A DNA stretch of 64,000 bases from Ascaphus truei (Eukaryota; Chordata; Amphibia; Anura; Ascaphidae), in assembly GCA_036426205.1 (NCBI GenBank), contig CM071568.1, positions 224,914,239 through 224,978,238 of the forward strand, in the 5' to 3' direction. Shown piece by piece: positions 589 through 60,866 of the stretch. Made by a program: the position numbers and the translations under genes. The notes under the pieces are model-generated. The model made no database searches and was not told where the DNA came from. It saw only the letters and a program-made list of their open reading frames with translations. The first letter of the stretch is position 1; every line of letters starts with the position of its first letter.

Positions 589-632
589 AGCCCTACGCGT
601 TTCGTAGATGTCACTCTACTTCCTCAGGGGCT
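589..632 (-). ncRNA. Hammerhead-ribozyme-like motif, left palindrome arm
   Basis: On the minus strand this reads AGCCC, CTGAGGA, an extra A, stem GTAGA with a six-base loop and TCTAC, then GAAA, CGCG, TA and GGGCT. AGCCC pairs with GGGCT (stem I, 5 bp), the internal stem is II, and ACGCGT is a minimal self-complementary stem III. The core fits CUGANGA...GAAA with cleavage expected after the A that follows GCGT. This is the minimal type I form described for Penelope-like elements. The extra A before stem II is not in the textbook core, so self-cleavage is uncertain. Confidence 0.7.
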
Positions 633-827
633 CGCTGCAGCTCCCTGGGATCTCAGACTGTCCATAAACCAGCGGATTTACTTCTCCTGTCGGCAGCCAT
701 CTGAGTCTTTGAAATGCAGCTTTGTTTTTCAAAAAACAAAGCGCATTTCAAAGACTCAGATGGCTGCCGACAGGAGAAGTAATCCGCTGGTCTTATGGGA
801 CAGTCTGAATCCCAGGGAGCTGCAGCG

Positions 828-871
828 AGCCCCTGAGGAATTAGAGTGACATCTACGAAACGCGTAGGGCT
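828..871 (+). ncRNA. Hammerhead-ribozyme-like motif, right palindrome arm
   Basis: Mirror copy of the motif at 589-632. Stem I (AGCCC at 828-832 with GGGCT at 867-871) and the GAAACGCGTAGGG side are intact. The base of stem II has changed (ATTAGA against TCTAC), shortening the stem to TAGA/TCTA. The two copies face outward from the palindrome axis. Confidence 0.62.
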
Positions 872-1978
872 AGTGGCACAGCCACTATCAGACTGACTTT
901 GGACGTTTTGAGGACATTTGGCATTGGAGCCCAGCTTTCCCTTCAGCTAGCCAGCTGTTCCTTTAAGACAACAGGCACTATCGCGCGCGGGCGCGCAGAG
1001 ACTTCCTGTTGTTCCGTAGAGGGAAGTGAGGCGTGTGTCTACACGCGGTGCAGAGCTGTGGACCCCGCACACCAGCCCCCCCACGCCGGCTGTTCCGGTT
1101 ACCATCGAAGGACTGACTGGTGTCTGAGCCGCAGTGGAGCAAGGCATCACCCGCCAGGGAGATCATCTCTACTTAGGACTTGTTCCTACCATGCGAGCTT
1201 AATCTTGCTGTATGTAAGTAGGGCTCCAATTTTTGTGCTCCGGATGACCTGCGGTTCCTTGTATTTGCCATAGTCGGTCTTGGCATAGTTCTTTTAAATA
1301 ATAAAAATTGTTTTAATTATCGCTAGGATTTCTTAACTGTTATGTGTATTAGTTCAATACTGCTTACCCTACAGTGTTGCGCTATGATTTTGTTTGTTTG
1401 TGTTCTTTTCTTTGCATGGTCTGTCGAGCAAGTGTGCGGTTCCCTTGAGGAGTACAGGACATTCCACTGACTATCTGGCGCCAGGTTTTTCTTTATTTTA
1501 GTTTATTCTGTTAGTACTGGCAGTATCACCGGGCAGCCAACCTTTATTACAAGATTTTGAATATCACACTGTGTATTACACTTTAGCGCTAGTTCACATT
1601 TTTTCTTCCCCGTTAGTTGTATAGTGTTACAAATCCACAAGACGTGTGTACCACACCAACAACTTATTAATACAGTGGTGACCAACTTTATTCTTACTTG
1701 GCTAGCTCCGCGAATTTCAGAATATCCCGGTGATGTGCGGTTTTGTGTCGTTTTCTCCCGGGGTGTTTTGCGTTATTTTCGCGGCTGTGATTTAAGCATT
1801 TTATTCCTGGCTGCAATACTGCAATGCCATGTAAAAACGCATGGGGGCGTTTGCGAGCTGTTGTCTCTGAAGTCTAATACCTTCGCAGTTCAACCTACAG
1901 TACACAGTCTGTGCGTGCGTGCGCAGTAATAGTAAAATTGCATATTTAATTTATTTTAAAGTACAGTACTGAACTGTA

Positions 1979-3336
1979 CATGCTCGGACCCTGTTGGGGT
2001 GAAGTGAGGGGGTTCCTAACATCTGGGGAAAAATGAATTTTAATTCTATGGTAAGTACTGTCTTGTCACACACTTTGCATAGCCCACCACTCCATGATCT
2101 TTATCTGAACTTGCCCTTGTCCAGATACTGTACTGCATTGTGCCACCTGCTTCCATGGAGCATCCCCGTTTCTATGGACGCAAGAACCCACTCACCTCTG
2201 CCGTGCCTGTCATGCTGAAAAAGCGAAAGGCGGTTGCCGTTTCCACGCCAAGGGCAAAGCGACAGGCTAAGGCCAATAAAGAAAACCTTCTGCTGACCCC
2301 AAAGGTTAAGGGTTAAATATTTATTCACTTTCATGCGAATGATAATCATTGACAGCCACCCCTACAGACCCACAACGGATTTGTTACATTATACTTATAT
2401 ACAGTATTTATATATTTTTATTTTAAAGATATTAAAGAATGTACTGTATTGTATTTAAAACATGTGACTGTAAACCATAGTGACTGACAAATATTTTCAC
2501 ACCCTGATGAAATACAGTATCAGCGTACTCTCAATTCTCACAGTGCTGTGCACATCAGATTTACATTTCAAATTCGAGAGGGGATTTTCCAAAGCATTAC
2601 CGTTCAAACAACAGGCCTCTAGGGGTTGGGGGAGGAGTATGGTGTGATTAGACGCAGGCGTACTGAGTGTTTGTAGCTCGGCTATGGGCGGATTAAGAAC
2701 ACAATGGCAATATGCAGAAGGTTAACGACCCAGTGGAGAAAGGGGGTTGGTAGGATAGGGTGACTCAGCCGATTGACACTTGGCTAGGGAGGGATTAAAA
2801 ATTCTGGAGGTGTGTGGCTAAAATAGTTTACAGCATTGTAATTTCAAAAGGCAGTTCATCATATTAATTTGATGAATAAACCCCCAAAGACAACCCCCAA
2901 ATACAGTACATAAAAAGCAAGTCACTTTAACTCCCTGTGCCCCATGCACCAAAAATGTTTTGTGGCAGAAGAATTTAATAAAGGCTGCAGAATGTATTAT
3001 TGTGTGTTGATGGTTAGAATTGCTGTGCACTTTAAATGTTACAACATTGTACAGTATTTGTAAATAAATGTTTTTGTACTGACCCCACCAATAAAAGAAC
3101 ATGTTGAATTGCCTCACATTGTTTCCATTTGCTCCTTTGTCAGTGTAACAAATGTAGAGGCTTGCTGCACTGTTTTTTTACTGCCTGGTCGTGCAATTGG
3201 CGTAGGAACTAGGTCAATTGGCGTAGGAACTAGGTCAATTGGCGTGGGAACTTCTGTTCTAGGGCACCTAGAAATAAAAATTTGCCCCTAGATATTAGGA
3301 ACCCCCTCACTTGATCCCAACAGGGTCCGAGCAGTA
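1979..3336. repeat. Inverted repeat pair inside the 3.84-kb transposon
   Basis: TGCTCGGACCCTGTTGGG at about 1979 recurs reverse-complemented, ending near 3336, with about 55 bp of similarity on each side. A third, related inverted segment ends near 3884 (CCTAACATCTATGGGCAA on the minus strand). The repeats bracket the small two-exon ORF. Confidence 0.75.
2033..2316 (+). CDS. Candidate two-exon ORF of 69 codons, basic, with KEN box
   Basis: ATG at 2033 opens a six-codon exon ending in ATG followed by a consensus donor GTAAGT at 2051. A pyrimidine-rich acceptor ends in CAG at 2122-2124. The second exon (2125-2316) is open for 63 codons to TAA, in phase with exon one. The product is lysine/arginine-rich (MLKKRKAVA, TPRAKRQAKAN) and contains KEN, the degradation signal read by APC/C, in NKENLLLTP. 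The bases around 2277 also spell AATAAA, inside the reading frame. I do not recognise the family. The exon structure, phase agreement and lack of stops favour a real gene; the short length keeps chance possible. It lies on the strand opposite the forkhead gene of the same transposon. Confidence 0.45.
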
Positions 3337-3890: not shown

Positions 3891-3918
3891 GTATACCACT
3901 GTACAGTATACTGTAGAA

Positions 3919-4267
3919 CAGGGGGGCGCAAACTTTTTTCCCTGCGCCCCCCTGCCGGCTGTCCCCTCACTCCCGCGCCCCCCCCAACCCCAACTTACCC
4001 TCGCTCCGGCGTAATGACGTCACGTTGCCATAGCAACGTGACGTCACATGACCTCGCAGCGTCATTTTGACGCCACGTTGCCATGGCGACGCCGGGAGGA
4101 AGCCGCCGGAGCCACGGGTAAGTATGGTTTACAGAGGCCCTGCAGCTCCCCCGGCACTTAATTTAAGTGCCTTCGGGAAGCGCGCGGGGCCTCTGTAAAC
4201 CCCGCGCCCCCCGTCGGCAGTCTCGCGCCCCCCCTGGGGGTCGCGCCCCACAGTTTGCGCACCGCTG
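3919..4267. mobile_element. hAT-type MITE with perfect 8-bp target duplication
   Basis: The ends are CAGGGGGGCGCAAACT and AGTTTGCGCACCGCTG, imperfect inverted repeats starting with CAG as in hAT elements. The flanks are exact 8-bp duplications, CTGTAGAA at 3911-3918 and 4268-4275. It is 349 bp and GC-rich, without a coding region, inserted between the two ORFs of the 3.84-kb transposon, so it is younger than that transposon. Confidence 0.92.
4015..4046. promoter_or_regulatory. CRE / X-box / CRE near-palindrome
   Basis: Two copies of TGACGTCA, the CREB/ATF site, flank GTTGCCATAGCAAC, which fits the RFX-family X-box (GTYNCC, RGNAAC). The 32-bp unit is palindromic except for one mismatch. A looser relative lies at 4080-4095 and another at 50980-51040. 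The motif match is seen; factor binding is inferred. Confidence 0.6.
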
Positions 4268-6120: not shown

Positions 6121-7550
6121 CATTTTTTTTAAAGGGTACAAATCAGGAACAAAACATAAACAAAGAACCTAACTCCACTTTGGGGAGTGCTGACTAATAC
6201 ATCTTAGTCTCTGACTAACTGTGGGAGAGCTAAGCTCTTTCCCCACCATGCACCCTGTACCCGGGGACAGGCAGCAGCTCCCCTTGCAGTCTCTCACAGT
6301 GCTGTCTGTGTACGTGCCTTCAGATCAGCACAGCAGCAGCAGGAAACTGTCTGTGCTGCCTTTTTACCTTGAAGCTCATTAATTAAGACTCAGGTGAGAG
6401 GGAAGGGAACACACCATGGAAGGTGCTGGGTCCTATGTACTTCCCCTCAAACACCTTCTTTTTGAGCACATCACAATATATATGTACAGATTAATTATAG
6501 GTACCTACGTCATTTAAGATTGGCCATAGACATATTTACCAATCTATAAACTTCATTTTATATTTATGTTTTTGAATAAAGTATTTTAGCATTATTATCA
6601 TTTCAATACATATAGGTTTGAGTCCATTCAAAGGGATTATCTCACTTCCCCATTTTTGGTACTGTCAACCCATCCCTGTTGCACCTTACTCTATTGTTAT
6701 TTTCACTTCACTTTAAGGCTGATGTGGGAGCTTCAATTTCCCTTCCCTATTCCCCCTGTTTATTGTAGATTGTAAGTTCTACAGGGCAGGAATTTCCCTT
6801 CCTATTGTCTGATTTTGTTTGGCACACTTATTGTATTATAATTCCCTGTACTGTATTGTCTCTTTTCTAAAGTGCTGAGTACACTGTGGGCGCTATATTA
6901 TTAAAAATATACAAACACATTTATAATTAAGAAACACAGAAAGAAAAAAAGAGGGTCTGTTGAAAGCACACAAACAATATGTGAAAATACAAAATGGATT
7001 TTATTAGCAACACAAAACACAAAAAAATTAAAATATACCTAAACACATGAACACTGCTGATCCAAGAGATACACAATATACATGTAGAGACCCAAAATAT
7101 GTAGCATGCAATATATGTGGGTATAATAATGCAAATCCAGAGGAAAGAAAATTCCCCTGGAAATGCAGTGAAGATCGGCCGATCAACAAAATAGGATAGT
7201 ACAAATGACTAAAAGATTACCAGCATCTACACAAAACCCAAATATGAGCAGAGAAAAGAGCAAAAATAAATAATGTAATAGTTATATACCCTAAATGCTG
7301 TACAGCCAGATGATAGCAGCTAGACCCTGGCAAACGTAATAAACCAGAGAGAGACAAATGATAAATGTCTTGAATATGTAAAAGTTGGGTCCACCATACC
7401 GTAGATATGGGGTGTATAGCAGTGAGTCAGCAGAGAATACAATACAAGGGAGAAAATATATAGGAATGACTCCCTAATGCCAGAGCTAGATGTAAACAAT
7501 ATAAGCTAAGGCAGACAGAGTGTGTAGTAGCCCAAGGGCTCCGTGGAGCA
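6121..7550. other. No gene seen; decayed repeats
   Basis: No open frame here shows family motifs. 6760-6905 is an L2-like repeat tail (own entry). 6940-7500 has the A-rich style seen at the heads of the PLE terminal regions elsewhere. Confidence 0.5.
6760..6905 (+). repeat. LINE/SINE 3'-tail-like dispersed repeat
   Basis: TAGATTGTAAGTTCTACAGG, GCAGGAATTTCCCTTCCTATTG and AGTGCTGAGTACACTGTGGG then GCGCTATA. A second copy is at 51937-52085 on the other strand. The AGATTGTAAGCTC...GCGCTATA layout is typical of L2/CR1-type 3' ends and is shared by the SINE at 49369. Confidence 0.65.
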
Positions 7551-8699: not shown

Positions 8700-10200
8700 T
8701 ACGGCTGAGGTGCGCTTGGAGCTGATTTGAGGCTGTGATACTTGGAAATCGTGCTACAAGCAGAAAATCGGCAAGTTGTCCATCAGAAGCTGCTGAAAGT
8801 GAACCGGATCGGATTTCCATCTGTTGGTGTGATCCAGGACGTTGTTACCTGTCTGGTGGTGATTATATCACGAACTGCTTGAATTTTTATTACCTTTGTG
8901 AGTGTCCTTAATCCCCCTGTCCTCTTTTAAATATTAAATGTACTATTTTACACTATGGGACGTGCACTCTCTGTTCTCTTGTTTCTATAGATTTCTGCTG
9001 GAATTGTTTTTTCCTTCTGAGAGCAGCCTGGGATCCCTGGAACTTATCTATTTGAATTTTTCTGGACTATACTAAGGGTTGGACTTTCTGCATTTATTTT
9101 GTTTTTTTTCCTTTGTTTTTTATTTGTTATGTAATATATGTAATAATATATTATTTTTATGTGTATTATCACTTTTGATGGCACAAATACTTTTTTAGAT
9201 TAATAATAATTTTTTACACTTTACACTGGAAGATTAGTGACAGGTGCAAATTTTCTAGTTAATTTCTGTGGACAATATTCTAATCTCTTAACATGCATTT
9301 GCGCCATTAAATCCAAGCTAAAGACAGCATTTTAAACATGCATCAAAGTATCAAGGTGCTTCGATTTTATCCACTTTAGTGTCTCGTACATCAGCGATCA
9401 ATTTGGGATGTCTTTATAAGAGCAGCTGGGGGAGTAGTTACTTGATGCTGTATTATCATGGAATATATCATAGTGTGTGAGTCTGTATGTGAGTCTGTTG
9501 TTTGTTTCCATATTTTGTGGGACAAAAAACTGTGCCAGCTGTCATATACAGTCCTGCAGTATACTCTTTGCTGGCTAACAGTCTGTATAATATCTAAGAC
9601 ACTTTTCTGACCTTTGATACAGAAGCAACCTATTTATATGTTGACTGTCTCAAGCCAGACATCTTAGAAGTCCTATGTTTTTATTTTGTTATTGTACTGC
9701 GTTCAGAAAGGATGTAAAGCTTTATTTCTGTGGAAAATGTTGTTCTCCTTGGCGCCAAAGTCTTTCTAGAAAAGATATCAAGATGTTGTCCTTGGTTTTC
9801 GTGTCCAGTTATTCCTTTTGAGTTCAAAAGGACTGTGCGAACCACTCAGAAGATATCCTCAGATGTACGTGTATATATCATTCTGCAAGGTAAACAAGGA
9901 AAAAAGGAACATAGCACAATATGTCTGTTGTCTCACAGAAAATATTAGCTCTTATAAGTATCTACTCACACTTTAATACCTCTCTCCTCGAGGCCGTGTC
10001 TCAGATGACTCGAGTCCCCTGATGGTGTCACTTGTTCTCCTCCTCTCTCATTGACGTACTGCTACACGTGTAAGCTCCACCCAATGCATTTCTTATTCTC
10101 TCCGGGTCCCTTCCCCAGGGCCGCGAGGAGAGACACTGTCACCCCCAGCTGGAGACACCGACAACCTCAAATCCACTCAAATCCACACATGCTGCGGATG
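8700..10200. other. No gene seen; T-rich leader-like sequence
   Basis: 8880-9230 is T-rich (TTTTGATGGCACAAATACTTT) and resembles PLE leader regions also seen near 15480-15600. Nothing else is recognised. The frame at 9730-9948 has no family motif. Confidence 0.4.
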
Positions 10201-10703: not shown

Positions 10704-10848
10704 CTGGAAAAAAAACCCGGTACTCGGTATGAGGAGCAGCAAGCAACAGAGCAGCATATCGTGGCGTCCTCGTAGAGGAGTGTGGACTGCAGGCTTCCGT
10801 CATCACGGTCCCAAGCGTCCTACGTCACGGTGCGTGTGAACTCATTGC

Positions 10849-10890
10849 CTCTACGCAGTTTGCGTTGTTCTAACACTTCATCAGGGGGTG
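10849..10890 (-). ncRNA. Hammerhead-like motif, decayed second core
   Basis: On the minus strand the motif is CCCCTGATGAAG, stem TGTT/AACA, then GCAAACTGCGTAG in place of CGAAACGCGTAG. The first core box is intact and the second is altered. Confidence 0.5.
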
Positions 10891-12589: not shown

Positions 12590-13500
12590 GGGATATTGTG
12601 CTCACCGTGATCACAACAGAACAAACAAACAATTTTAAACCCTCTAAAAAGCGCTAACCTACAATATGTGTGAAAACAGTGAATAATAATTACCAAAAAT
12701 ATATAATGATAAATAATATAGTGAAAAAAGCAGCCTAGTGGAACAACAACCAACAGATCATTCATAATCTGATAAAACAATTACACATACAAAAGAGTGT
12801 CCCCGGCGCTCAAACTCAGTCCAAAATACCGTACTCAAACAAAGATAGTCTCTGATACAAGGCTCCTTCTGGACAGGTTGAGGAACTGGTTGGACAAAGT
12901 TACAGATGGGTAGGTGTCCTTGATCGAGTGTCTTCACTGATTCTGAAAAAGCAGAAAAAGGCACACCAATTGCGCAGTATAACACAGCAACGAGTCCCTA
13001 ACTAGAACTTGCAGAATCCTACTCACAGAATAAAGATTGTCACATTCAGGGGAGAGAATCTGTATACACTTCCCGTCCCTGCACGGCTTCCCACGGACCC
13101 CACGTGGTCTGGCTTGTAGAATTCCCCTCAGATGGGCGATGTTGATCGTGGATGTCAACGATACAGCATACACCAGCAGTGAAACAGGGAATACGACAAA
13201 ACTAGTGTGATATGTAACAAACTTTAATAACACACTTAAAACACTTAAAAACCACACTCACATGGTATGGAGGTGAGTCATACGACTCACGGATGCTGTC
13301 CGCAACCTGAAAGTTCCCCGATCTGCAGCAGAGAGACTCACTGCACGTGCCACCTGCTAACGGCAAGCGGGTGACGTCAGCAATGCAGGAAGTCCTCCCT
13401 GTGTCTGGAACTACGGTGGCCGGATCGGATCAAAACACTAAGCTCCTCCTCCCTACGCATTTCATGACACTAGGTCACTTCCTCAGGGGTAACCGGAGCT
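12590..13500 (-). repeat. PLE 3' terminal region (pLTR-like)
   Basis: It lies downstream, on the minus strand, of the PLE C-terminal coding fragment at 13811-13912. It contains the hammerhead-like motif at 13451-13489 and then A-rich sequence, the same order as downstream of the PLE at 36-40 kb. This pairing of coding end and motif is what identifies the other solo copies. Confidence 0.6.
13451..13489 (-). ncRNA. Hammerhead-ribozyme-like motif
   Basis: On the minus strand: CCC, CTGAGGA, extra A, stem GTGAC/GTCAT (one G-U pair), GAAA, TGCG, TA, GGG. Stem I is 3 bp (CCC/GGG). Both core boxes are intact. It sits about 320 bases downstream of a PLE stop codon. Confidence 0.62.
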
Positions 13501-13810: not shown

Positions 13811-13912
13811 TCAAGGATCTTTCAAAAATGCCGCCAGATCAAATTCGATGTTGAGACCTAAGGGGGACAGAGTTTTTAATAAATAGATCCAATAACTCTC
13901 ACGTTTGGATAC
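13811..13912 (-). pseudogene. Penelope-like element, C-terminal fragment
   Basis: The minus strand reads KRESYWIYLLKTLSPLGLN then IEFDLAAFLKDP and TGA (13811-13813). The pattern K(R)ExYWI...LxTLxPxGLN is the end of PLE proteins, after the GIY-YIG endonuclease. Only this C-terminus remains; PLE retrotransposition commonly leaves 5'-truncated copies. The strand agrees with the pLTR-like region downstream. Confidence 0.75.
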
Positions 13913-14438
13913 TGTATTTAATCTGTCCCCCCCCCACGCCAACAGCCCTTGGGATCACAACAGAAGTGGAGGACACTCCACTTTCATTATAAATCCCTTG
14001 GCTTGCTAGCCATTAAATGGCATGTCACATACCAAAATGTCCTCCGCTCCTTCAAAGGTTCTTCACTCCTCTCCCCCTCTATATATCTCTTCTCTCAGCC
14101 TCCTGCTGGCCTCCTCTTCTCTTTTCAAAGCTGTATTGTGCAAAAGGAGGGAATGTATAACCAGAATCTATTAGATAATTGCATCAGTTATCTGATGGCT
14201 ATCCAGTTCCTGCAATATGCAGTACCAATGAATGTCAGTGGTAAAGTAATTAAGGTGTTACTGCATTAATGATAAAAAGGACAGGACTGATAAGCATAAC
14301 ATTGTTGTGCAAAGTAGAAATAAACTTAACTGGGTTATTATGTCATACAGTGGGTCAGGGTTTTCAACTCCAGTCCTCAAGACCCCCCAACAGGTCATAT
14401 TTTATGGACATCCTTAAAACTTGCGAACTCAGGGAAGA

Positions 14439-14458: not shown

Positions 14459-14703
14459 AAGAAAGGGAACCCTCGCTACTGCTTATAGTAATCTAATGTG
14501 GTGCTGCTATCTGGGGTAAAAATGTAGAACAAGCCCAGGGAGAAAAGAACCCCACTGGAGAGCACGCCCCTATCCAGCGCTGTGGCTCCAACACGAACAC
14601 TACACACTTCACTTACTCAACCAGAGAATGAATAGGAAACTAACTAACCTATTGGAGCTTACGCTCTCCCATAAAAGGTGGGGGCAATACACACGCCCCA
14701 CCC

Positions 14704-14742
14704 ATCCTTGAGAAAGCATTGCCTTGCGAAACGTACGTCGGC
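14704..14742 (+). ncRNA. Hammerhead-like motif, TTGAGAAAG subtype
   Basis: TTGAGAAAG, stem GCA/TGC around TTGCCT, GAAACGTACGTCGG. The bases after GAAA are the 8-base palindrome ACGTACGT. The core position expected to be G8 is A, so an inactive relative is likely. Confidence 0.5.
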
Positions 14743-15640
14743 AGTGACGTCATTACGTCAAGGGGGCGGGTCAAACGCTCGCGATCGGAGCGCGACCGTC
14801 CCATACTAGCCCCTCCATATGGAGCTAGATACATGCATTGAGCCTATACTTATCTACTTGAGCGGCACCCGTGGTTAACTCTGATACACCCAGCATTAGC
14901 AAGTAGGTGTAAAGCGACTCAGCGCTACCACGGTGCCTGCAATTTTAATGATACTGGATCCTCATGTTGTTTTTACCTACCGAGGTGTGAGTAGACACGA
15001 CTAGTGTACTACTGTTCTCTTTTTAACTATTGTGGCAGCAGCCACCCTTCTGCGGTCAGAATAGACACCCCTCCCTAGGGGTGCTCCCACACTGGAAATA
15101 TATCTAGTGTGTGTTACCTGCTTAGTGCCAAAACTGCAAAGACTGCGTCCATCTATGACAGTATCTACCACTGACACTTGCAGCGGTCTGTATATATCTG
15201 GACTGCCCCACTATTGGCTATACATAGCGATTATTGCAGTCTCTGTGACAACTCACTAATACTGACATTCACAGCTCTGAATCTGCTTTTATACACTACA
15301 CTAGCAAATGGGCAGGCTGACTTATTTACACCAACTAGAAGGAGAGCAATCCTATCTTTGCTGAGTGGATGCACCTGTGTCATATCCAGCAGACACAGAC
15401 CACATTGGTTTAATTGTTCACCTAGCTACACCCTGCATATATCATCAAGGGTGGTAGCCCACACCGCACGCATGAGAGTTGGTATATTTTACTTCGCTGC
15501 GCTTTTTTGGATCATTATTTTGAGTCTTATTTACTCTGGCAACATAGTGTTCCATATATTTTAGTTGAGTTATTACTCCCAATAAATTTTATTTTAAATT
15601 CATCCCTTTGCATCTCACTCACGACTTCCTCCATTCTAGC
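14743..15640 (+). other. PLE leader-like region downstream of the motif
   Basis: No coding motif. GC-rich sequence with ACGTCATTACGTCA precedes T-rich sequence, the order also seen after the plus-strand motif at 33532. Confidence 0.35.
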
Positions 15641-25640: not shown

Positions 25641-26110
25641 TATATTTAAAACTCTGAAAAACTAGGCACACCCTCCGTATAGTTGATCAATTAGGGTGTT
25701 ATGCATGCATACGAATAATCCATAAAGTGCATCATCCAAAACTGGACACATGACAACCAACCAGGTAAGTAGCAAGAAAAAAGTGTATTTAGAAGTCCTT
25801 ACAAAGTACCAATATTTCGGTCCTCATAGGGATCTTCATCAGGGCTACCTGCGATGATTGTCACTGTTCCTGTTTTGGGTGATGTACTATATATATGTAC
25901 AGTATATACAGATTGGATAGAACAAACAGAGCATCAATAAACAAGTTTCATAAAGTGCAAATATATATGTATATATAAGTGAAAGGGAGGTGCTAACCAG
26001 TATTAACTTAATCTAACCCTATAGATGCTGCCAAAAAGGTCCCCAACCTCACAGATGCCGAGAGAATTTACACAAACAGAATGACCTAGGCGCAAAAATA
26101 GAGAAAGACA
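25641..26110 (-). repeat. PLE terminal-repeat-like region
   Basis: The hammerhead-like motif (25809-25846) is flanked by A-rich sequence on the left, as in the other pLTR-like copies. No PLE coding is next to it. Confidence 0.45.
25809..25846 (-). ncRNA. Hammerhead-like motif with intact CTGATGA
   Basis: On the minus strand: CTGATGA, extra A, stem GATCC/GGACC (one mismatch), GAAATATTGG. The first box is perfect. After GAAA the sequence has left the CGCGTA consensus, so the cleavage site is not recognisable. Confidence 0.5.
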
Positions 26111-27230: not shown

Positions 27231-27483
27231 TGGTACCATGTCAACACGCGAGACTCCACCTGCGGGATCACTTTGTGTACCGCGGTCCGGCCATGGGAAG
27301 CTGCTAGAAGGCAAACAAAATGTCATCACGCGGTTAGGTGGTGTTTTTTCTTTTAATGTAAATATCTGTATATGATCACCAGATGGCACTGCAAATATCT
27401 TTAGTGGCTGTGCATGCCAGGGAAATGCGTAACTGCTTTACCTAGTGCACATACTGTCCTAGCAGTGTTTCATGTGTGTCACG

Positions 27484-29550: not shown

Positions 29551-29685
29551 CAGCACACCATGAAGTAAATACAGATACTTGCTGTTACCAGTGCTCCTGG
29601 TACAGGGCAGTCCCTGTCTGTGAAAAAACTCCAGAGTAAGCAAAAAATGGAAGTTCCAGGGCACTGCGGATTTGCATTTCATACA

Positions 29686-29725
29686 CACAACGTTTCAACC
29701 AGCTAAGTGGTCTTTCTCAAGTGAA
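29686..29725 (-). ncRNA. Hammerhead-like motif, TTGAGAAAG subtype
   Basis: On the minus strand: TTGAGAA, extra A, stem GACCA/TGGTT around CTTAGC, GAAACGTTG. The stem has five pairs with one G-U. The G8 position is A, as at 14704. Confidence 0.5.
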
Positions 29726-29934
29726 GATAGAATCGTTGCCCTTCCTCTCAGTACCCGACTAGCACCCTCTCTATCCACCTTAAGACACACTTTAAGACAC
29801 ACTTGCTTAAAGAAGCATATGAGTAGCACCGTAGATATTACTAGACACATGATAGATAAAGCTTGGCCCCCTGCAGATGCACTTACCAAAATGCCCTCCT
29901 ACTGTTTCTGTACATTCCTCCTACATACCAATTA

Positions 29935-33330: not shown

Positions 33331-34000
33331 AAGTGTATTAATAATACTCTAATAATGTGTACCAATTGATACAACATTGGTTAAGATAACGAACACTGCT
33401 GCTGTTTCGAAACCACTATTCAGAGGTGTCATCTGTGACACTGCAAAGGTTAATAACCTTTTATTGTCTGATAATGTGATTTCTAATTGAACAGACTACA
33501 TAAGGAAGTAAGCTCCCTCATGTGGTCATTATACCCCTGATGAAGTGAGTCATTGACTCACGAAACGCATAGGGTGAACATTACAACATCCTATTTTGTG
33601 TGCCTGGTTGTATTGCCCTGTTGAACTGCTTGGTAGAGACGTTCGGAGACCTGTTATCTTAAGCACCGGAGAAGTGACTGCAGGACTTAGCACTAAGAGA
33701 GGCGAAACCCTGGACAGTCAGTTGGCAAGAATTGCCAACAGAGTGTGTGATGTCATCGCGCAAGGCGGGTCAGAGGAGAACCAGGAAGGGATTCCCCTCC
33801 TGACACCAAGTCATCAGCTGAGCTGCACGCGGACACCGATGGGAGCAGTGACTGGAGCGGGTCGGCTGAGGAGAATCCAGAGGGTCTGCAACCAGGCGAC
33901 TGGAGTGGATCAGTGGAAAATATCCGGGGGCTCCCTATTAATTCAATAGTGTAAAGACAATGTAGGCAGTGCAAATACAAGCGGAATAAGGCCATGAAAT
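33331..34000 (+). repeat. PLE terminal region, plus strand
   Basis: Centred on the best hammerhead-like motif of the window (33532-33576), with a GC-rich 3' part containing GATGTCATCGCGC. No PLE coding sequence is attached. Confidence 0.5.
33532..33576 (+). ncRNA. Best hammerhead-ribozyme-like motif in the window
   Basis: ACCC (33533-33536) and GGGT (33572-33575) form stem I. CTGATGA at 33537-33543 is the perfect first core box. After one extra A, stem II is GTGAGT/ACTCAC around CATTG. GAAA at 33562-33565 is the second core box, then CGCA, T and A give a minimal stem III and a predicted cleavage site after A33571. All core bases are present. The extra A before stem II and the 2-bp-scale stem III, typical of PLE-type ribozymes that work better as dimers, are the open questions. 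Confidence 0.72.
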
Positions 34001-34310
34001 AAACTACAGTACAAAAATGTACACAATGTACAATACTGGCCAGAAATTGTTCTGCAGCTCAACCCGAAGGGGATCCTCCCACAATCCTCACGTAATGATA
34101 GGAAGAGAGTAGGGGAGCACAAACCATAAGGAATAAAAGAATAAAATATGCAAAACAATATGAGAATAGGATCCTTCAGATGTACTGTACATTGTACAGC
34201 TAAAGGGGATGAGTGCACGAATGTACAGCACAGTAGATACAGCTGCGTGCGTACAATAGGGTACACTTAACTCAAACACACTGGATAAAAAGTAATGTCC
34301 CCCGTTGGAA

Positions 34311-34345
34311 CCTGACGAAGCATCCATAGATGTGAAATGTGTTGC
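34311..34345 (+). ncRNA. Hammerhead-like motif with CTGACGA box
   Basis: CTGACGA, extra A, stem GCATC/GATGT around CATA, GAAATGTGTT. Both core boxes are intact (position 7 may vary). Stem I is poor. Confidence 0.55.
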
Positions 34346-34709
34346 CCGAATAGGGTGTACTTTTTTGACCCTCGGCGGCTGCCGTAGTTCCCTGGTATCA
34401 GCCGTGTTTCAGCCCTGTATACCGGACGCGGTAAACAGGGAAGCAACTACTGTTCGGTGATCGGAGCAGCTACCACCACCGACGGAGTACAGCTTTTGTG
34501 CTTATATGTTTAAATAAAATATTTTTAAATAAAACTATTTTTAAATAAAACAGTTTTTTAATACATTTTTTCTAGCCGTATCTATTGTCATTTGGACGGG
34601 GAACATATATCTCCATACCACGGGGATATATCCACCGCAAGGGACGGGAGAGCCTGCCAAGAGAAGCAAGCACCGATACCCACAGAAACACGATTTGGGG
34701 CTTTGACCT

Positions 34710-35280: not shown

Positions 35281-35422
35281 CCGTGTAAGTCATTATTATC
35301 ATGATTTATTTACCCCTCAGCCATTACTTTTTCTCCAGTATGTTTGAGTTGCATTTTCAGTTTATTGATGTATTGTGCCCTGTATATATTTATATTACCA
35401 TATCAACTTCTATTGTAACATG

Positions 35423-35458
35423 TCTGAAGAAGGGAACTGAATGGTCCTGAAAACTTCC
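35423..35458 (+). ncRNA. Degenerate hammerhead-like motif
   Basis: CTGAAGA, extra A, stem GGA/TCC around a 9-base loop, then TGAAAACTT. The first box is intact and the second shifted by one base. Confidence 0.4.
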
Positions 35459-35499
35459 ACTCCTTATAAACATCAGTTAGGTATTAAATGGATATGGTG

Positions 35500-35990
35500 A
35501 GATAAGTGTGCGCTGGCTGATAGGTAATCTACAATCCCATCTAAGAGTTGGTCCTGCAGCTGATCCTCCTCCCGTGATCAACAGGGTCAATACCACACTA
35601 GAACAAAAAGTAAAAGTAGCTTATGAAGGGACACTAAGTAAAAATAATGTGTTACTTTGTATAAAAAATACACTTCACAACACATAAAAATTTATGCTCC
35701 AATTGTCCTAATAGAACTCAGTTGTTCACTGGACCTCAGTTCCATCCGATGTTTATGAGCACTCATCTGATCAAGGGAAAAGCACAGGGGAGAGGGAACA
35801 CAGGGTCCATGGACAGTCCTATTTACTAGCAGGGAGCTCGCGAATGGCTATACAAGCTGGCCGTAGTGTTCTCGCTAGGGAGGCGTTGACTCTAGGCGTT
35901 CGTCGTCGTGGCGTCTTACGTCATCCGTCATTGAACTCCAACTCAATACCTCAACGCGTTTCACGTCTATGACACTTCATTAGGGTGTGA
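35500..35990 (-). repeat. 3' terminal region (pLTR) of the PLE at 36.7-40.5 kb
   Basis: It lies downstream of the PLE stop codon on the same strand, with the hammerhead-like motif at 35949-35988 followed by GC-rich and then A-rich sequence. Matching block order is seen at 10400-10890. Confidence 0.6.
35949..35988 (-). ncRNA. Hammerhead-like motif of the PLE 3' region
   Basis: On the minus strand: CTAATGA (one change from CTGATGA), extra A, stem GTGTC/GACGT around ATA with two G-U pairs, GAAACGCGTTG. It is about 740 bases downstream of the PLE coding end. Confidence 0.58.
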
Positions 35991-36727
35991 GTTATTGGCT
36001 CTCGGAGTGGCTATACTTATACCAATCAATCTTGAAGCCTGAACCAATAGGATGGGTATCCTTCCGCTATTTCTAACTAAACTTACTCAAAACCATACAT
36101 AAACAATATGTTAAAACCCACAATAACATACAGTATATTTCACATAATTTTAACCACATAATTTTATAACTCATATAAATTAAACTATAATCATATAGTT
36201 TTAAAAAACGTAATGTTTGACTAAAAGATATATCTCACATATTCAAACCAATTCCCAATAATTCCAACCTGGCTATAGTCTATACACAATTTCATATTAT
36301 TGATCAGCAAGGGTGTTTTAGTCATTCCCTGTTTCAATAATCAGTATATTATTTTCACATTCCCAACATGATAATAAGTTTGTAATATGAAATGTTGGTT
36401 TTATCACATATATTGTTCCCAATAGCTAGTTACATTTAAAAAATCATTATATTTCTATTTCCATAAGAAACATACATTTGTGTCCAATATATCCAATATA
36501 ATCAGTATACTCATATTTATTAAGTAGAGGGATTTTTTAGTGAATCCCTCCACATACATCACATGATCCAATAGTTATAGCATCCCAGCCATTATTCTAT
36601 TATTTGTTAACATAGAAGACATTATTATCTCTTATCCTTTCTCATGTAGTACATGATAACATTTATATACTGGTGGTCAAGGATTATATCAAAGGAAGAG
36701 TACATTACTTAAAGTATACTATTATAA
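35991..36727 (-). other. PLE 3' untranslated region, no gene
   Basis: AT-rich sequence between the PLE stop codon and its pLTR. Confidence 0.5.
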
Positions 36728-37020
36728 AAAAGGTGTCAATTTAATTAACTCATTCAAACAATTTGGAGATTTGGTTTGCAATGCAAAGATCCAAAATTGC
36801 CCTCTTTGTAACAGATGCAGTTCTCTATTTCCCCTTCAAGGATCTATGATGATAACCTCTAAACCTCTAAAATTGAGGCTCGCACATTGGCCATCGTCGT
36901 GATCTATAAAGTGCTGTGCCAGGTTATGAATTTTTTTGCCACTTTCCCATGTGGATCTTGGCATTTCTGATACCACTAATAGCTCCCCTATTCTGATCTA
37001 AAGGAGGCAATTTTTTTTCC

Positions 37021-38189: not shown

Positions 38190-38815
38190 AGGGGGCAATT
38201 TTTTTGCCAATATATTGTAGGTTACATGGGCATTTAATTGCATAAACCACAAAATTAGTTAGACAATTAATATAGTGGTTAATTCTTTGCTCCTTCCCTG
38301 TTTTATTGTCATAGCATATCTTGTTCTTAGACATATAGTTGCACACAGTGCATCTGCCACAGCAATAATTGCCTATACAGTAGATTTCTCCAAAAAACCT
38401 CCAGGATTCCCATTCTTATTGGGGGGTTTTTAAGGACACTGAGAGCCAGTATCCTTTTAAAATTTTTGGCTTTTCTAAACGCCACCTTAGGCTTATCAGG
38501 AATCACATCCCAAACCACTGGGTCCATTTTTAGAATATCCCAGTGTTGGTACATTATCTTCCAGGTTCTAGTTTCCTGTTTGCAATAACCCATTATAAAC
38601 AGAGAATTGGTTAGTTAATCATTATTGCATTCTGATTCCTTGGGAATTAATAGGGATTGTCTCAGCACATCTCTACTTGTTTTGAGAGATCTCTCTACTA
38701 ATTTTGGCTCATACCCCTTTTCCATGAATCTTTTTGTTATGACAATTGATTGGTCTTCAAAGTCTTCCATTTGAGAGCAGCTCCTTCGTATCCGTAACTT
38801 TTGCCCATAGGGTAT

Positions 38816-39570
38816 GTGTAACGCTTGCGCGAGCCCACAAACAAAACCTGACCCCGGCACTGAGGTGGGAACAACTGTGCCACACACCCACAGTAGCGGG
38901 GGCGGGCCCAGAAGGTGGTTGGTAGCGTTGCTGGGTCTGGGTATGTAGAAAGGGTTTATCCAATACTTGCCGGGGTCCGTGGGTTGGAGAGGTACTCGTA
39001 GTTGAAGTCTGTAAGCCTGTGGTCTGGGGTTTGAGAGGTACTCGTAGTCGTTATCCGTAAGCCAGGGGTCAAGAGCCAGAGAGAATCCAAATACAAAGCC
39101 AGGTCGGTACACGAGAGGTTAACTGCAGAGAACAAGACAAGACTGGGCTGGACAAGACAGGCACACGCAAAGGCTACACAAAGTTATGTTCAGCAAGGTA
39201 TGACAGGAAGAGGCAGTTCTTTATAGGAGACAGGAACCAGTAGGAGAAGGGGCGGAGCAGAGGCGGGGCCTCCGCAGATGCCAAAGATAGGCTACAGGAG
39301 ACAAGGGCTCACAGCAATCTTGACTCGCAGCTGGGGCTCGTTGCGCGACGTCACGCGTGCACGCCGCGCGCAGTGGAGGCGCGGCGTTACCGAGGGGGCG
39401 GAGCTAAGGTCTGTGACCTGGTAGAAGAGGAGCGGGTGCGCACGCGCTCTGTAAACAGAGCGGGGGTGTGCGCACCAGCGGCGGTGGATCGGAGGCTGCA
39501 GCTGCTGCAGTACTGTTATATAGAGAGGAGGAACCGCGCCGCAAGGGACGCGATCCCTGAATCCTCACAG
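38816..39570. mobile_element. 0.75-kb GC-rich insertion inside the PLE
   Basis: PLE coding stops at WLNNI (39571) and resumes at IPYGQ (38815). Between them lies unrelated GC-rich sequence with CGCG, CACGCGTGCACGCC and two copies of GGTACTCGTAGTYG. TATGT at both edges may be the target duplication. It happens to leave part of the minus frame open. Class unknown. Confidence 0.72.
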
Positions 39571-39965
39571 TATGTTATTCAACCAGTGTATAGAATGGTT
39601 AGTATGGGCATCGAGATACGAATTTACATCAACTTTAAAAAAAATGATTTTGTTGTAATTTTGTTCTCCACAACAGTTAGATCCAGATCTAAGAAATTAA
39701 TACTGGTTCTGTGGTTCTCCCCACTCAACACAATATTCAGTTTGTTAGAATTAATGAATATATTAAGATCCTTCTGAGAGCTGAACCAAATCATTAGGAT
39801 GTCATCAATGATTCTTCTGTAGAAGCGTATATTGTCCCTGTGCTTGCTCCCAGTCCAAATGTATTCCTGTTCCCATAATCCCATTAATAGCCCCGCATAA
39901 TTAGGGGCGAAACATGTGCCCATGGCCGTCCCATTGGTCTGTACATAAAAGGAACCCTCAAAGGA

Positions 39966-40014
39966 AAAATAATTGTGATCAAGTATAATTTTTATACTTG
40001 ATCACAATTATTTT
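39966..40014. repeat. 49-bp hairpin inserted in the PLE reverse transcriptase
   Basis: 22-bp perfect arms (39966-39987 and 39993-40014, core TTGTGATCAAGTATA) around a five-base loop. One arm encodes LDHNYF of the PLE and the other is its inverted copy, so the local inverted duplication itself broke the reading frame. Confidence 0.9.
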
Positions 40015-40530
40015 ATCTACAATGAACTGTTGTTGTAATAGTGATAAAGTGTTATCCTGATATAAAAAGTGTTTAACTGCCTCTACACCATGTGTGTGTT
40101 GTATACAGGTGTATAGTGATGCCACATCTTATGTCACCCATGCGTAGTGCTCTTCCCAAATAATATCTTTAAGTGAATTAAGTGTGTCACTGCTATCCCT
40201 CAAAAAGGATGATAATGCTGCAGTGAGTGGTACCAAAAAATTGTTAACATATTTAGATACATTTGCAGTGATTGATCCTTATCCAGACACAATGGGACGG
40301 TCAGGGGGCTCCACCAATGTTTTATGTATCTTTGGGATATGGTATATTATTGGTATACATGGTGGTTCTGAATGTAGATATTGGAATTCTTTCATAGATA
40401 GAATCCCTTGTCCTTTAGCTTTTAGTAGATGATATCTCAATACTGAAAGGTGCCCTAGAGTCAGATCCCTATCCAGTTGTCTATATGAATTCCCCTCGCC
40501 TAACAGGCGATATGCTTCCCTAAGGTATTA

Positions 40531-52085: not shown

Positions 52086-52321
52086 TGGTATGATGGGGAA
52101 CTTACAGAGACAGCAGGTGAGGGAATAAGTACTGTAGATGGCAGTGCTTGGTCACAATGGGTGGTAGCAGTGACTGAGTGTGGGACAGTAACCATGAGTG
52201 CAGGCTATTGGGATGCTTGATCTGTGGGGCAAGTTTTAAGGTTAGTCAGTATTAAAATGAGAGGGTTAACACAATTTACAGGAGAAGAGATGACAGGGAG
52301 GCATGGGTGAAATCAGGTTTG

Positions 52322-52720
52322 TACACTGGCGACACACTTTATTCGAGCTCGGCTAGTCCCACGAATTCGGGTATACCCGGGTGTATTGAGGTTTGTGACT
52401 GTTTTCTGCCCGAGTGCATTGAGGTATTTTCCAAGCAGGGATTGAAGCATTTTATTCCCGCTGGCTGCAATACTGCACAGTATATATATATACTGCATTA
52501 CAATTCATGAATTTATGCCATCTGGTAGACACGCGAAGCATTGCAGCCTATTAAATCCTAATCATTATCATTTAACAGATCAGCCGCCCGTCAGCCAGGC
52601 ATGAACCCAGGCTGGGAAGGCAAACGCAACGGGGCTTGTCAGAGGTGAGGAGCGGCGCATTCCAGGTATCTGCCAGGTACATACTGGGTATTTGCTCGAA
52701 TAAAGTGTGTCGGTGCAGTA
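52322..52720. mobile_element. TA MITE, 399 bp
   Basis: Nearly identical to 27484-27885 over its whole length, with the same TACACTGGCGACACAC / GTGTGTCGGTGCAGTA ends. The differences include a shorter TATA run and a few substitutions. Identity this high between copies 25 kb apart suggests recent mobility. Confidence 0.92.
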
Positions 52721-54479
52721 TGTCTGGCTTCAGGCTTAGGGGAGATCGCCAGCAGCTGGAAGGAGTAGATAGAGGGTGTAAATAGAGGATTTGTGTGGGT
52801 GTTTTTTATTGAGGGGTAAAGAAGTTGTTGGGAGAAAGGTGTATAAAAAATGGTGCAGTGGGGAGTGGGGAATTTGGAGAGAACAGAGACGTTCACAAAG
52901 GAGTGAGGAAACAGTAAACAGAAAAAGCAGAAGGGAGGGCATAGTGAGATGCAGTAGGAGAGACTTCCCAGGTACTGGAGGATAGAAAGAGTACAAAGAA
53001 TCACAGCTTTTGGGAAGTAAATTTCTCACAGTTGCAAAGTTGTTGCTGTGCAGAGTTCCAATCTTCCTCAAATCTTCACCTCCAATTTCAACTCCAAAAT
53101 TAACTCTGCCAGACACTTTAGATGTAACACTTTAAGATGGGACTCACAGCCAAAGCATAATTTGCATTTGCAGGGCTGACATGTTAATTTCATCACCACA
53201 CAATACCAAGTATCTAAGCTGGGGGAATTGCTCACACAGGAATAAATACAGACATAAGGTATTTATGTAAAAGACAGGACTTAGAATTACACACAGCTAT
53301 CCCACATTCCCTGTACTTCCCCTGACATTACATACATTGGGCTGAAATATACATTATTTAGCCAGCCAACTTATATGTTTTTTTAGGGGTAACTAGCTGG
53401 GATTTCTCTTTATTCGGTCAGCCAGCAACCCCTATCGTCACAACAACAATCAGAATATGGAGTATGAATCAGTGCGGCCTATTTTGGAAATCCTTATATT
53501 TTTAATCTTAATAAACAGTTACATGAAAACAATCTACAGTACCCTTCATATTTGCAAGTGTGGCCATTCTGCTAGGGACTACTAGTGTTTAAGGGGTTAA
53601 GGATCCCAGAGAGTTAACTGTGTGGGGTCACACAGTCTTTCTTCCTTCCCCATTATGTGATACAGGATGATTTGAAGAAAGAATAACCACTTGCCATTAG
53701 GTCATGGGACTGGTGATGTCACCAAGGGGAGATGGGAAGATATATACTGTATAGCGCATTGCGCCCCCAGTGTTCTAGAATCAGGTTCCTCTTGAGCAGC
53801 AGTAGGAGAGGTCCTCACTGTAAGTTTTGTAAATTTGTTTCAAAAAGAAAAATCAGCGCTAAAAGATGTACAAAAAATGTTAGTCCAAACAATAAGTGTT
53901 AATCAACACAACAAAAGTCCCAGAAATATAAAAAAGGATATAGGGTAGATGGCCCAGGTGAGTCTTGGGGTCTGAACGGTTTCTATGGAGTATACCAATT
54001 TACAAACAGATCTACTGTAAACGACAAAAAACAGAAGTGCATGCCTCATAGTATATTACCATTTTAATACAATTACTAGGTTGGAGTAACCTTAAATATG
54101 AACACTCACAAACATTTGTGCTAAAATCGCAGTGTGGAAAAACCTGATAACAGGTATGTCTACCTGCTCAGCTGGGATCTTGGAACCACGCAGGAGACAA
54201 GATAGAACTCCTCACCGCCACGGCCCCAGGTATGAATGACCTCTGTCAAGTCCAGTCCAGTTGTAGATCGGATGACCATGGGCACAAAGGGGTACCGACG
54301 TGTTGTTTAAGCATATAATTATGTGTAGTAAGGATGTCCTGTCACCTTTATTTTTTTCAGTTAGGGAACATACCCTTTACAGATAGAGCCCACGGTAATG
54401 AACAGAGTTTGTTCTCTGACCAGGGGAGGAGCAGGCAAGCGCTCAGCAGGGAGCTCTCAGAATAGACACAGAGTGTGTC
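52721..54479. other. No gene; possible PLE terminus at 53840-54310
   Basis: 53840-54310 is A-rich then GC-richer and ends GGTACCGACGTGTTGTTTAAG, in the style of the other pLTR-like regions but without a readable hammerhead motif. The frames at 52639-53116 show no known motif. Confidence 0.35.
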
Positions 54480-58745: not shown

Positions 58746-60415
58746 CCTACTACAGTCACGTTTCCTTACATTTTGAAGAGGTTTTTGTAGCTACAGCAGA
58801 GCAAAGCAATGTTTGACATATTTGTAGAGTGAATGCACTCCTAGCATTTGTAATTTATCAAACTATGTGGCTGTAGCAAAGGCAAATTCAATTCAGATAT
58901 TAACATTTCTGTGCATGAAGGAGAAAATGTAATCTGCACAGTTCTTTGGTCGGTTTTCCACAGCTCAAATTACATTCTGGAAGGCACATCTTAACTCATA
59001 AACTTATTGTCCTTCCAAGACAGAGAGATATATAGCCGATCACAACAATGGAGACCTCTGTGAAGTAGATGTGAGTCACAGGACAGATGTATTATTATTA
59101 GTCTTGTGTACCAAGTCCATGCACTGTTCTGCAGAGAACACACTTTATATTGTGTCTTCATCTACATAAGTATTGTGATGTTCACCAAGCAATATACTGT
59201 ACATCAGCCCACTAGGGAGAGTAACAAGTCTAAGCAAAAAGACAAAAATAGAAAAGAGCAATGTCAGTAGTCAGCCTAATGGATTAAAACACATAATTTG
59301 TCTAGACATAAAACTATTAAAATTTTATTTTCTGCAGTCAAGGCTCCTTTCTGGCTACTTCTCGAATTAACCTTGTCATTGAGTGCCATCCCAATTGGAA
59401 GAATAGAATGTGTACTTTTGAAATACAGATCCACATGCACTGGAGAGGACTTTTGATTTCATTGATAAACTACACAATGGGATATAATACTTTGTCGGAA
59501 GATACATTCAGAGGTTAAATGAAAGCTGCAGTCACACTGTCTTCTGCCCTTTTTCAAATCATGTATTTGGATATTTGGTATTTGGTATGAGACTTTGCAC
59601 GAATTGTATATTTCTTGGCATAAATCTTATGATGTTTTTAATTGTGACTCCTTCTCTGTCGGACATTTCTGCTGATAATTGATTTACAATGCATTGCAGG
59701 ACCCTAAAACACAATGTAGTATAATGTTAAGAATAAAAAAACTAATTGTTATTATTCTGTTTATATCAAAGAAAATCTGCTCAATAAACATTTCAGAAGC
59801 ATTTATGCAGCCACATCTCAGATATATTTAGCTTTTGGGTTTACGTAGCAGCTGCATCTGAGATATGAACCCCAGATCAAGTTTGGTCTATAACTAGCAA
59901 ACACGCTTTTGATCACACCATAAGTCTTATAGATGTTACTGAGAAACGTATCAGAGTAAATTAGCCATATATGACTGAATAGTATTGTATAATGCATATC
60001 TTACCTAAAAGTGGCATTGCTCCCACCCAGCCCCTGAAATAGAGGGGCATGTTTCCTAGGTATCTCAGGTTTGTTCACAAGTATCTCCCCTCTGTGTTGT
60101 ATAGAAGTCACTTTGAACTTTGCAAAAATAGAGGTCTCATATCATTAGCACCAACGTCCGTTATACTTACAGTAATGCTATGGCCTTTCCAGACGAAAAT
60201 GTGAAATTAGTGAGCTTTGAACATACATGTTAATGCTAAAATGAGGTGTTAACTACGGTTAGTGCCGTGTTAAGTAAATAACAGGCCTCTGTGGAACTGG
60301 GCCTGAAAAGGAAATTGGCACGGTTAGTTGGGAATATATGGGGTAAAAGCATCCTATATAGTGTATGAGCACTATACTCATCTACTATATCTGTACTTAG
60401 ATCAGAAGGCTGTGG
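58746..60415. other. No gene seen
   Basis: AT-rich, no motif or clear repeat. Confidence 0.4.
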
Positions 60416-60552
60416 GGCTGATTCTACAATATAAACCCTGAAGCATCCAATCGCACTGCGATCGACGAAAACTCTCATTGACTTGAATGGGAGTTTTTGG
60501 TATATTGCAGTGTGATCAGACACTTCAACATACTGTATATAGAATCAATCCC
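60416..60552. mobile_element. Short MITE, GATTCTA-type ends
   Basis: GGGGCTGATTCTACAATATA at the left and TATATAGAATCAATCCCT at the right are imperfect TIRs. The inside has AACTCTCATTGACTTGAATG then GGAGTTTTTGG, itself inverted. Similar in style to 20582-20710. The target duplication is unclear. Confidence 0.65.
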
Positions 60553-60829
60553 TTTGAATCCCTGCAGGTCTAAGTTGAAATATCTGTACCATTTTACCAC
60601 AGGTGGATACCTTTCTCCCAAAAGAGCCCTGACTGGTCCCCATCCATATCTTCAGGACGAAGCCTAGGATCGCCTAACTGAGTAGTGAAGGCTTCATTCA
60701 CCTTTCTACGCTATCTTTCCACTGTCCTCATGCTCCTAGCCCCATGCAAGACTGACCTAGGTACAATTTAAGACAAAACTAAATTCTACATTACCTGAGT
60801 CCCTACACATCATTTGCATAAGTAAATGC

Positions 60830-60866
60830 ACCTGTGAAAGGTCATTGACCCAAACGTGCAACACCA
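60830..60866 (+). ncRNA. Degenerate hammerhead-like motif
   Basis: CTGTGAA, extra A, perfect stem GGTC/GACC around ATT, CAAACGTGC. The stem is kept while the core boxes have lost two bases, so it is probably inactive. Confidence 0.45.

Follow-up and report, generated by a model that had tools for sequence, protein, structure and literature searches.

Minimal type I hammerhead ribozymes of Penelope-like elements (PLEs) were reportedly described by Cervera and de la Pena in 2014 and by Lunse et al. in 2017. Their dispersal in thousands of copies and their presence in the terminal repeats (pLTRs) of PLEs are established, according to passages of a review (PMC7761336). Palindromic loops III are described for repeat-type hammerheads in the legend of Figure S8 of Perreault et al., and excerpts of PMC6466107 (citing Lunse et al.) and, for the axolotl, of PMC7229834 mention them as well; parts of Perreault et al. 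2011 (PMC3088659) further report that positions 3 and 8 pair within the hammerhead core and that natural hammerheads with a compensated U3-A8 core pair exist. Sections of PMC3846280 describe both inverted pLTRs and head-to-head palindromes of PLEs. The present analysis concerns a stretch of 64,000 nucleotides of the frog Ascaphus truei (assembly GCA_036426205.1, contig CM071568.1, positions 224,914,239 to 224,978,238 of the forward strand), here called the window, in which an earlier note made from the sequence alone had listed 14 hammerhead-like sites. Since PLE pLTR hammerheads are already established and type I motifs are known to abound in the axolotl, the kind of motif is known and the members described here are new.

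Nine of the 14 sites are supported, and these copies very probably possess a type I hammerhead fold, likely derived from PLE pLTRs, that would cut RNA as dimers via a palindromic helix III. The layout, which had been equated with the type I core known from PLEs, is corroborated by the core letters, by stem II covariation and by the placement next to PLE sequences, and the motifs are hammerhead cores of likely PLE origin. Both strands were read at each of the 14 sites. The supported ones (given by position and strand) include seven with a C3-G8 core, namely 627-, 833+, 10884-, 13486-, 33537+, 34312+ and 35983-, and two with a U3-A8 core, 14708+ and 29720-; two more are doubtful (25842-, 35424+) and three unsupported (10204, 27184, 60830), the 27184 site containing only the 3′ half of the motif (27183-27238, minus strand, GTGAAACGCATAGGGC). 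The same core letters had been attributed to all sites, which proved true in part: CTGANGA..GAAA is literally present at seven (627-, 833+, 13486-, 25842-, 33537+, 34312+, 35424+), and CTGANGAA is absent at 10204, 14704, 27184, 29686 and 60830. Those seven sites, the doubtful 25842 and 35424 included, hold all the type I core letters (C3 U4 G5 A6 G8 A9, G12 A13 A14 A15.1, U16.1 H17). The core is broken at 35983, which has CTAATGAA instead of CTGANGAA (G5A), and at 10884, where GCAA replaces GAAA.

These similarities exceed what resampled sequence yields. A descriptor combining the core letters, an optional base after A9 (admitted after the sites were seen), four stem II pairs, four stem I pairs, U16.1 and an H17 other than G found four window sites with a score of at least 33, against 0.017 per resampled window, and seven with at least 31, against 0.42 (60 first-order resamplings). 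The core letters of the earlier note, with the stem ignored, gave four loci against 0.00 expected (100 resamplings); upon relaxation in two steps they gave five (0.01 expected) and then six (0.02 expected). Outer stem II has five of five pairs in five of these six core-picked loci and four of five in the other, with a background of 0.0098 for five of five. A covariance model, R1, trained on the six loci recovered the untrained motif at 10846-10890 (-) with E 7.5e-6 in a window search that gave 23 matches; the next matches were at noise level, namely 25805-25848 (-) with E 0.11, 10077-10124 (-) with E 0.86 and 35418-35475 (+) with E 0.98, and the U3-A8 sites 14708+ and 29720- were not among the 23. 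The patterns used in the descriptor, core-letter and covariance tests were shaped after viewing the sites, yet are independent of the earlier note's choice of stems. The stretch 10077-10124 (-), CCCTGGGGAA..GAAATGCATTGGG, is possibly a further decayed motif outside the earlier list.

Along the window, the motif at 588..633 (-) has an intact C3-G8 core, stem I AGCCC/GGGCT, stem II GTAGA/TCTAC and loop III ACGCGT (descriptor score 36; z of folding against shuffles -2.40; part of R1 training), with a cut predicted from the sequence after A594. Its sister copy at 827..872 (+) has a broken outer stem II pair, T opposite C (score 34, z -1.05). These two motifs, 627- and 833+, face outward in the two arms of one palindrome (1..1464, 95% arms, central hairpin 668-791) that reaches the window edge, and thus they are not independent and count once; by its look the palindrome is a head-to-head pair of PLE terminal repeats, and PLE coding sequence was not found inside it. 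The motif at 10846..10890 (-) is decayed and has some 90 nt of its 3′ flank in common with 35983-. At 13448..13492 (-), stem II is GTGAC/GTCAT and loop III ATGCGT (score 33), and at 14701..14746 (+) a U3-A8 motif has a stem II of three pairs, GCA/TGC, and loop III ACGTACGT; this loop and core pair recur in the PLE-linked genomic loci L021 and L022. The other U3-A8 motif, at 29680..29726 (-), shows stem I CAC/GTG, stem II GACCA/TGGTT and loop III ACGT (z +0.42). Intact cores are found at 33531..33577 (+), with stem II GTGAGTC/GACTCAC and loop III ACGCAT (score 36, z -2.97), and at 34306..34349 (+), with stem II GCATC/GATGT and stem I largely lost (score 31, z -0.42). The G5A motif at 35947..35989 (-) has stem II GTGTC/GACGT and loop III ACGCGT (z -0.95). 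As for the doubtful sites, 25805..25848 (-) has one stem II mismatch and loop III ATAT (score 31), and 35418..35465 (+) has the core letters only, with no palindromic loop III and no clear stem I (score 31, z +1.05).

The two U3-A8 sites read TTGANAAA in place of CTGANGAA, with U/A at positions 3/8 where the consensus has C/G. When these positions were freed (16 combinations) and the other core letters kept fixed, the window contained nine matches against a mean of 0.57 in 200 resamplings: seven are C-G (including the doubtful 25842- and 35424+), two are U-A (29720- and a weak one, 11250+), and none belongs to the other 14 combinations. Site 14708+, with its three stem II pairs, is not among the nine; together with 29720- it matches TTGAGAAAGN{8,18}GAAACGT, a pattern written post hoc, for which shuffles give a mean of 0.00 (100 shuffles). 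The weak U3-A8 match at 11250 (+) reads TTGAGAAA, with GGCT/AGCC and no clear loop III or stem I.

Stem II was said to differ among copies and nonetheless to stay paired, and a comparison with shuffled copies had been proposed. Six loop-cut window sequences were used, with arms set by eye and with both 627 and 833 included; pairing reaches 90.0% of cells, compared with 69.2% in shuffles, and double-change cells number 13 against 4.3; none of 500 shuffles reaches either value, so that compensatory change is upheld. With the partner arm slid by one to three columns, 28-46% pairing remains, and both sides have changed in four of the five pairs. Less clear are the number of pairs with a double change (5 vs 2.8, reached by 23 of 500 shuffles) and of further pair types (10 vs 7.8, reached by 56 of 500). 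The claim holds for the inner pairs, which covary beyond shuffles; part of the listed variation is probably not covariation, most outer G·T pairs and the YGYGT variation looking like CpG decay. The outer pair is either G-C or G·T, its C11.1 forms a CpG with G12, and the loops ACGCGT, ATGCGT, ACGCAT and ATGTGT differ only by CpG transitions. The observed/expected CpG ratio of the window is 0.47; a comparison of the decay rate with other core positions would be biased, the sites being core-selected. Given the CpG transitions, the lost stem I and the G5A change at 35983, the window copies are likely old, decayed insertions on which selection has ended. The same covariation is seen outside the window: the first 100 genome matches listed, all from the start of contig C1, include 87 distinct stem II segments. 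In these segments pairs 1-4 are formed in 86, 95, 95 and 78%, respectively; 55 of the 87 have every outer pair intact, and 80 keep at least three quarters of them. Pair 3 is C-G in 31, A-U in 22, U-A in 14 and G-C in 12, and mean pairing is 0.876 against 0.550 with the 3′ arms re-dealt (maximum 0.626 in 1,000).

The genome from which the window comes (2.824 Gb, 19,235 contigs) contains 20,682 exact matches of the strict core pattern CTGANGAAN{8,22}GAAACGCGTAG, and 0 of the pattern read backwards. The link to PLEs is visible already in the window, which was searched with 38 individual PLE proteins at E<=0.05 as well as with a profile built from 52. Remnants of the hallmark PLE open reading frame (ORF), a reverse transcriptase (RT) with a C-terminal GIY-YIG endonuclease, were found at 36725-40530 and 13823-13933. 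The larger one, on the minus strand, consists of the RT (39562..40530, broken by a frameshift and stops, E 5.6e-57), the RT end with the start of the endonuclease (38203..38818, after a foreign insert of about 740 bp) and the endonuclease C-terminus (36725..36994), which follows a second foreign insert, LINE-like by look (about 37000-38200), and extends to the final residue of P0006, P0007 and P0008. At 13823..13933 (-), an endonuclease C-terminus remnant corresponds to residues 733-769 of 769 of P0005 (E 1.1e-7; profile E 4.6e-4). Downstream of each C-terminus lies a motif of the same strand, its core starting 337 nt (13486-) or 742 nt (35983-) further on; the probability of both neighbours under random placement is 0.0012, for the six strong motifs and with a 750-nt limit set after seeing the distances. 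Besides these two, no PLE remnant was found beside other window motifs, with only a noise match at 6895-7104 (+) (E 3.0). The best named relatives of the PLE protein are from frogs (P0002 of Ascaphus truei, E 1.9e-110, then Ranitomeya and Leptobrachium), followed by tick, sea squirt and others; the relatives carry precomputed PF00078 and, in part, PF01541. A PDB search with a 125-aa RT piece gave no match, and Pfam scans of ten window ORFs revealed no PLE domain.

A genome search with P0008 gave 61 matches (60 scored of 117,065 first-look candidates), among which open-frame PLE copies are present. Thirty PLE loci were examined with 1.5 kb flanks, shorter at contig ends, and for 14 of them another 2 kb of 3′ sequence was added. 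A scan that left positions 3 and 8 open matched a motif in the 3′ sense flank of 20 loci, always within the first 1.5 kb; 19 are convincing, and the match in the AT-rich L040 is taken as chance. Eight of the 20 are C-G, seven U-A (including L040), five U·G, and none belongs to the other 13 combinations, compared with 0.37 matches in resampled 3′ flanks (maximum two in 200), which scatter across all combinations. The distance from the end of the ORF match to the motif on its 3′ side is 412-1455 nt. The 3′ antisense flank has a match in one of 30 loci (G-G, taken as chance); the 5′ sense flank has four, of which L028 and L044 are taken as real and L029 and L037 (G-C) as chance, and the 5′ antisense matches of L019, L020 and L035 are all inside inverted repeats. 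In the reverse direction, a PLE protein was found within 1.5 kb of five of the first eight genome motif matches (L001, L003, L004, L005, L006); in L004, L005 and L006 it is upstream on the strand of the motif, and L003 and L004 adjoin the same PLE piece. Within the 1.5 kb flanks, repeats across the ORF occur in nine of 30 loci, being inverted in L018, L019, L020 and L035 (1,027 bp at 100% in L035) and direct in L020, L028, L033, L037, L039 and L042. The motif is within both repeats in L019, L020 and L035 (inverted) and in L028 (direct); the repeats of these four show the hallmark of a hammerhead in a pLTR, and those of the other loci are candidate pLTRs. The palindromic copies L009 and L011, with outward motifs, resemble window 1-1464, and the palindrome of L013 has inward motifs.

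In 17 of the 19 PLE-linked motifs the segment A15.1-U16.1 is a perfect palindrome of six or eight letters, loop III having been taken as the best-pairing of the lengths 4, 6 or 8 ending in U, a choice that favours palindromes. The exceptions are L015 (ACAAUCGU) and L018 (ACGUGCGU, which pairs with G·U). The distinct forms are ACGCGU, AACGUU, ACGAUCGU, ACGUACGU, ACGGCCGU, ACGCGCGU and ACAGCUGU; five of the seven distinct eight-letter forms are perfect palindromes, with P about 2e-7 at CG-rich composition. In the window, loop III of 13486 and 34312 pairs only with G·U, and that of 33537 (ACGCAT) does not pair throughout. At H17, which the scan left open, the 19 motifs have C, U or A, and none has G. 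Since 17 of the 19 possess such a palindrome, which a dimer joined via helix III requires, dimer formation is predicted to be necessary for cutting. PLE transcripts running through the ORF into the 3′ pLTR would carry a sense hammerhead, whose helix III alone, of one or two pairs, would be too short to hold; two motifs would therefore join by means of the palindrome, and cleavage 3′ of H17 would release unit-length RNAs with a 5′-OH. In tandem copies, the unit that follows on the same transcript may serve as the partner. A transcript of an inverted copy contains a single sense hammerhead, and its dimer would have to form with a second RNA, a consequence unstated in the passages of the PLE literature considered here.

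Several results speak against this interpretation. Rfam hammerhead families matched no window site (0 matches at the gathering score; the 32 weak window matches at E<=10 belong mostly to microRNA and snoRNA families and to no hammerhead), and two short window stretches searched alone in Rfam gave no hammerhead either; the covariance search that the earlier note had proposed is therefore negative with Rfam models and positive only with the self-built R1. Folding is better than that of shuffles at z < -2 for only two of 11 single window copies, and the minimum-energy fold includes stem II in five of them. An extra A between A9 and stem II, present at 627, 833, 13486, 33537, 34312, 35983 and both U3-A8 sites, breaks the strict consensus, which has no letter between A9 and the pair 10.1-11.1. 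In a viroid hammerhead, the extra nucleotide is said to be located between A9 and stem II. That a viroid hammerhead with an extra core nucleotide is known can be taken from the title of reference 28 of PMC6155905. Stem I has at least three pairs at 627, 833, 13486, 33537 and 29720 and is lost at 34312 and 35983. A long outer stem I common to the sites was rejected as a general feature: p<0.05 was reached at three of 12 sites with 40-nt flanks (627, 833, 13486) and at two of 12, different ones, with 60-nt flanks (35983, 35424). No scan match was found in ten of 30 PLE loci (11 with L040), nine of the ten having been searched to 3.5 kb; a laxer scan placed a motif 1,674 nt 3′ of one of them, L017. 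Finally, L019/L020, L021/L022, L035/L036 and L043/L044 carry the same motif and several of the 19 are near-identical, so that independent cases are fewer than 19.

A further adverse point comes from a PLE of Anolis, for which passages of PMC11167929 report that insertion in vitro did not depend on hammerhead cleavage and that natural RNA ends were not seen at the cut site. This agrees with the idea that template recognition or the priming of PLE reverse transcription is what preserves the fold, RNA cutting being weak or irrelevant. We consider this rather unlikely: the core pair 3-8 varies in a pairing manner across PLE families and H17 is never G in 19 motifs, letters that a mere binding stem would not require. 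The motifs might instead be metazoan non-LTR retrozymes, hammerheads inside tandem repeats, given that amphibian retrozymes are of type I, with palindromic loop III, and very abundant (126,247 motifs in the axolotl, according to sections of PMC7229834). Such an origin is very improbable, as no motif is covered by any of the window's 51 tandem-repeat rows, leaving the 150-450 bp hallmark unseen in the window; moreover, the motif sites have mostly different flanks, and 19 of 30 PLE loci have the motif next to the ORF.

Conservation could also be due to a DNA-level signal, a hairpin or an endonuclease target at palindromic junctions, rather than to RNA; 627 and 833 do lie in a palindrome, and at some PLE loci the ORF is flanked by inverted repeats. 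Among the genome matches listed, departures from Watson-Crick pairing at the first stem II pair are most often G·T as read on the hammerhead strand (15 of 87 distinct segments), a pair possible in that RNA but not in its complement; the point is weak alone because it is partly likely CpG decay. A DNA signal leaves unexplained the U·G core pair of five loci and the hammerhead-specific unpaired letters as well, and we give this explanation a still smaller probability than the retrozyme one. That the matches are chance ones picked by eye finds some basis in the three unsupported sites of 14, in the two at noise, and in the loose CTGANGA..GAAA pattern, which alone has nine window matches against 3.93 expected (three of 100 shuffles reach nine; two of the matches, 4424+ and 38102-, are outside the earlier list). 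For nine of the 14 sites it is refuted by the descriptor, core-only, freed-position, genome-count and PLE-flank results, and its probability is close to negligible.

The preferred reading, a dimer-cutting type I hammerhead of PLE pLTRs, can be set beside the described systems. With the minimal PLE hammerheads (PMC7761336, PMC6466107) the motifs share the short or missing helix III, the palindromic loop III, the dispersal in thousands, the place in the pLTR and dimer cleavage (here predicted). Those are said to be usually without non-conserved helix III letters, whereas here a 4- or 6-letter palindrome is found inside A15.1-U16.1 in most motifs; also, unlike the forms described in those passages, positions 3-8 include U·G. 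The Poseidon PLE of Anolis carolinensis (PAc; PMC11167929) likewise has RT, GIY-YIG and a hammerhead at the pLTR, but its ORF starts at hammerhead stem II, while the motif here is 3′ of the end of the ORF match; no PLE coding sequence was found after a motif in the window. Newt satellite 2 and axolotl retrozymes (PMC7229834) have in common with the present motifs the single pair capped by a palindrome, dimer-dependent cleavage (again a prediction here) and a high copy number in amphibians; they are repeats of about 330-350 nt, whereas the carrier here is a protein-coding PLE. The compensated U3-A8 pair is shared with the hammerheads of Perreault et al. 2011 (PMC3088659); a difference is that U3-A8 motifs here neighbour PLE ORFs, and that within one genome other PLE ORFs are accompanied by C3-G8 or U·G motifs. 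Two details may be new, though novelty is not claimed for them: the U·G core pair and the extra A that constantly follows A9. Neither of two exact motif patterns occurs in IMG/VR or GTDB contigs.

The window contains other features. TGACGTMA occurs at 4015-4046, 13372, 14745-14760, 35916 and 51056, with 12 strand matches against 1.96 expected; a CRE-like TGACGT within 120 nt 3′ of four of 11 motifs (0.0004 vs random places, 0.038 vs CpG-rich controls) was considered and is not relied on. MITE-like hairpins with 75-94% arms, matching weakly Rfam microRNA families, are located at 31750-31817, 50806-50923, 61616-61801 and 4126-4201. A direct repeat of about 409 bp (97%) comprises 27483-27890 and 52321-52725, a LINE-type endonuclease remnant is found at 19000-19275 (-) (PF14529, E 1.8e-5, just below the family cut-off), and microsatellites are present.

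The cellular role of PLE hammerheads is called a mystery in passages of a review (PMC7761336). A tentative proposal, which we judge unlikely to hold as a whole, is that they act as a copy-sensing cutter: the palindromic helix III would be unable to form within one motif, transcripts of copies with inverted pLTRs would each contain one sense hammerhead and so require a second RNA, and cutting would rise with transcript abundance. On this proposal the core pair 3-8 would have passed through the states C-G, U·G and U-A among living families, with U·G as a natural hammerhead core that tunes the speed. Rfam models pass over this form of hammerhead despite nine supported window copies. A genome with more than 20,000 strict-pattern matches, open-frame PLEs and three core-pair states makes the role of PLE hammerheads testable.

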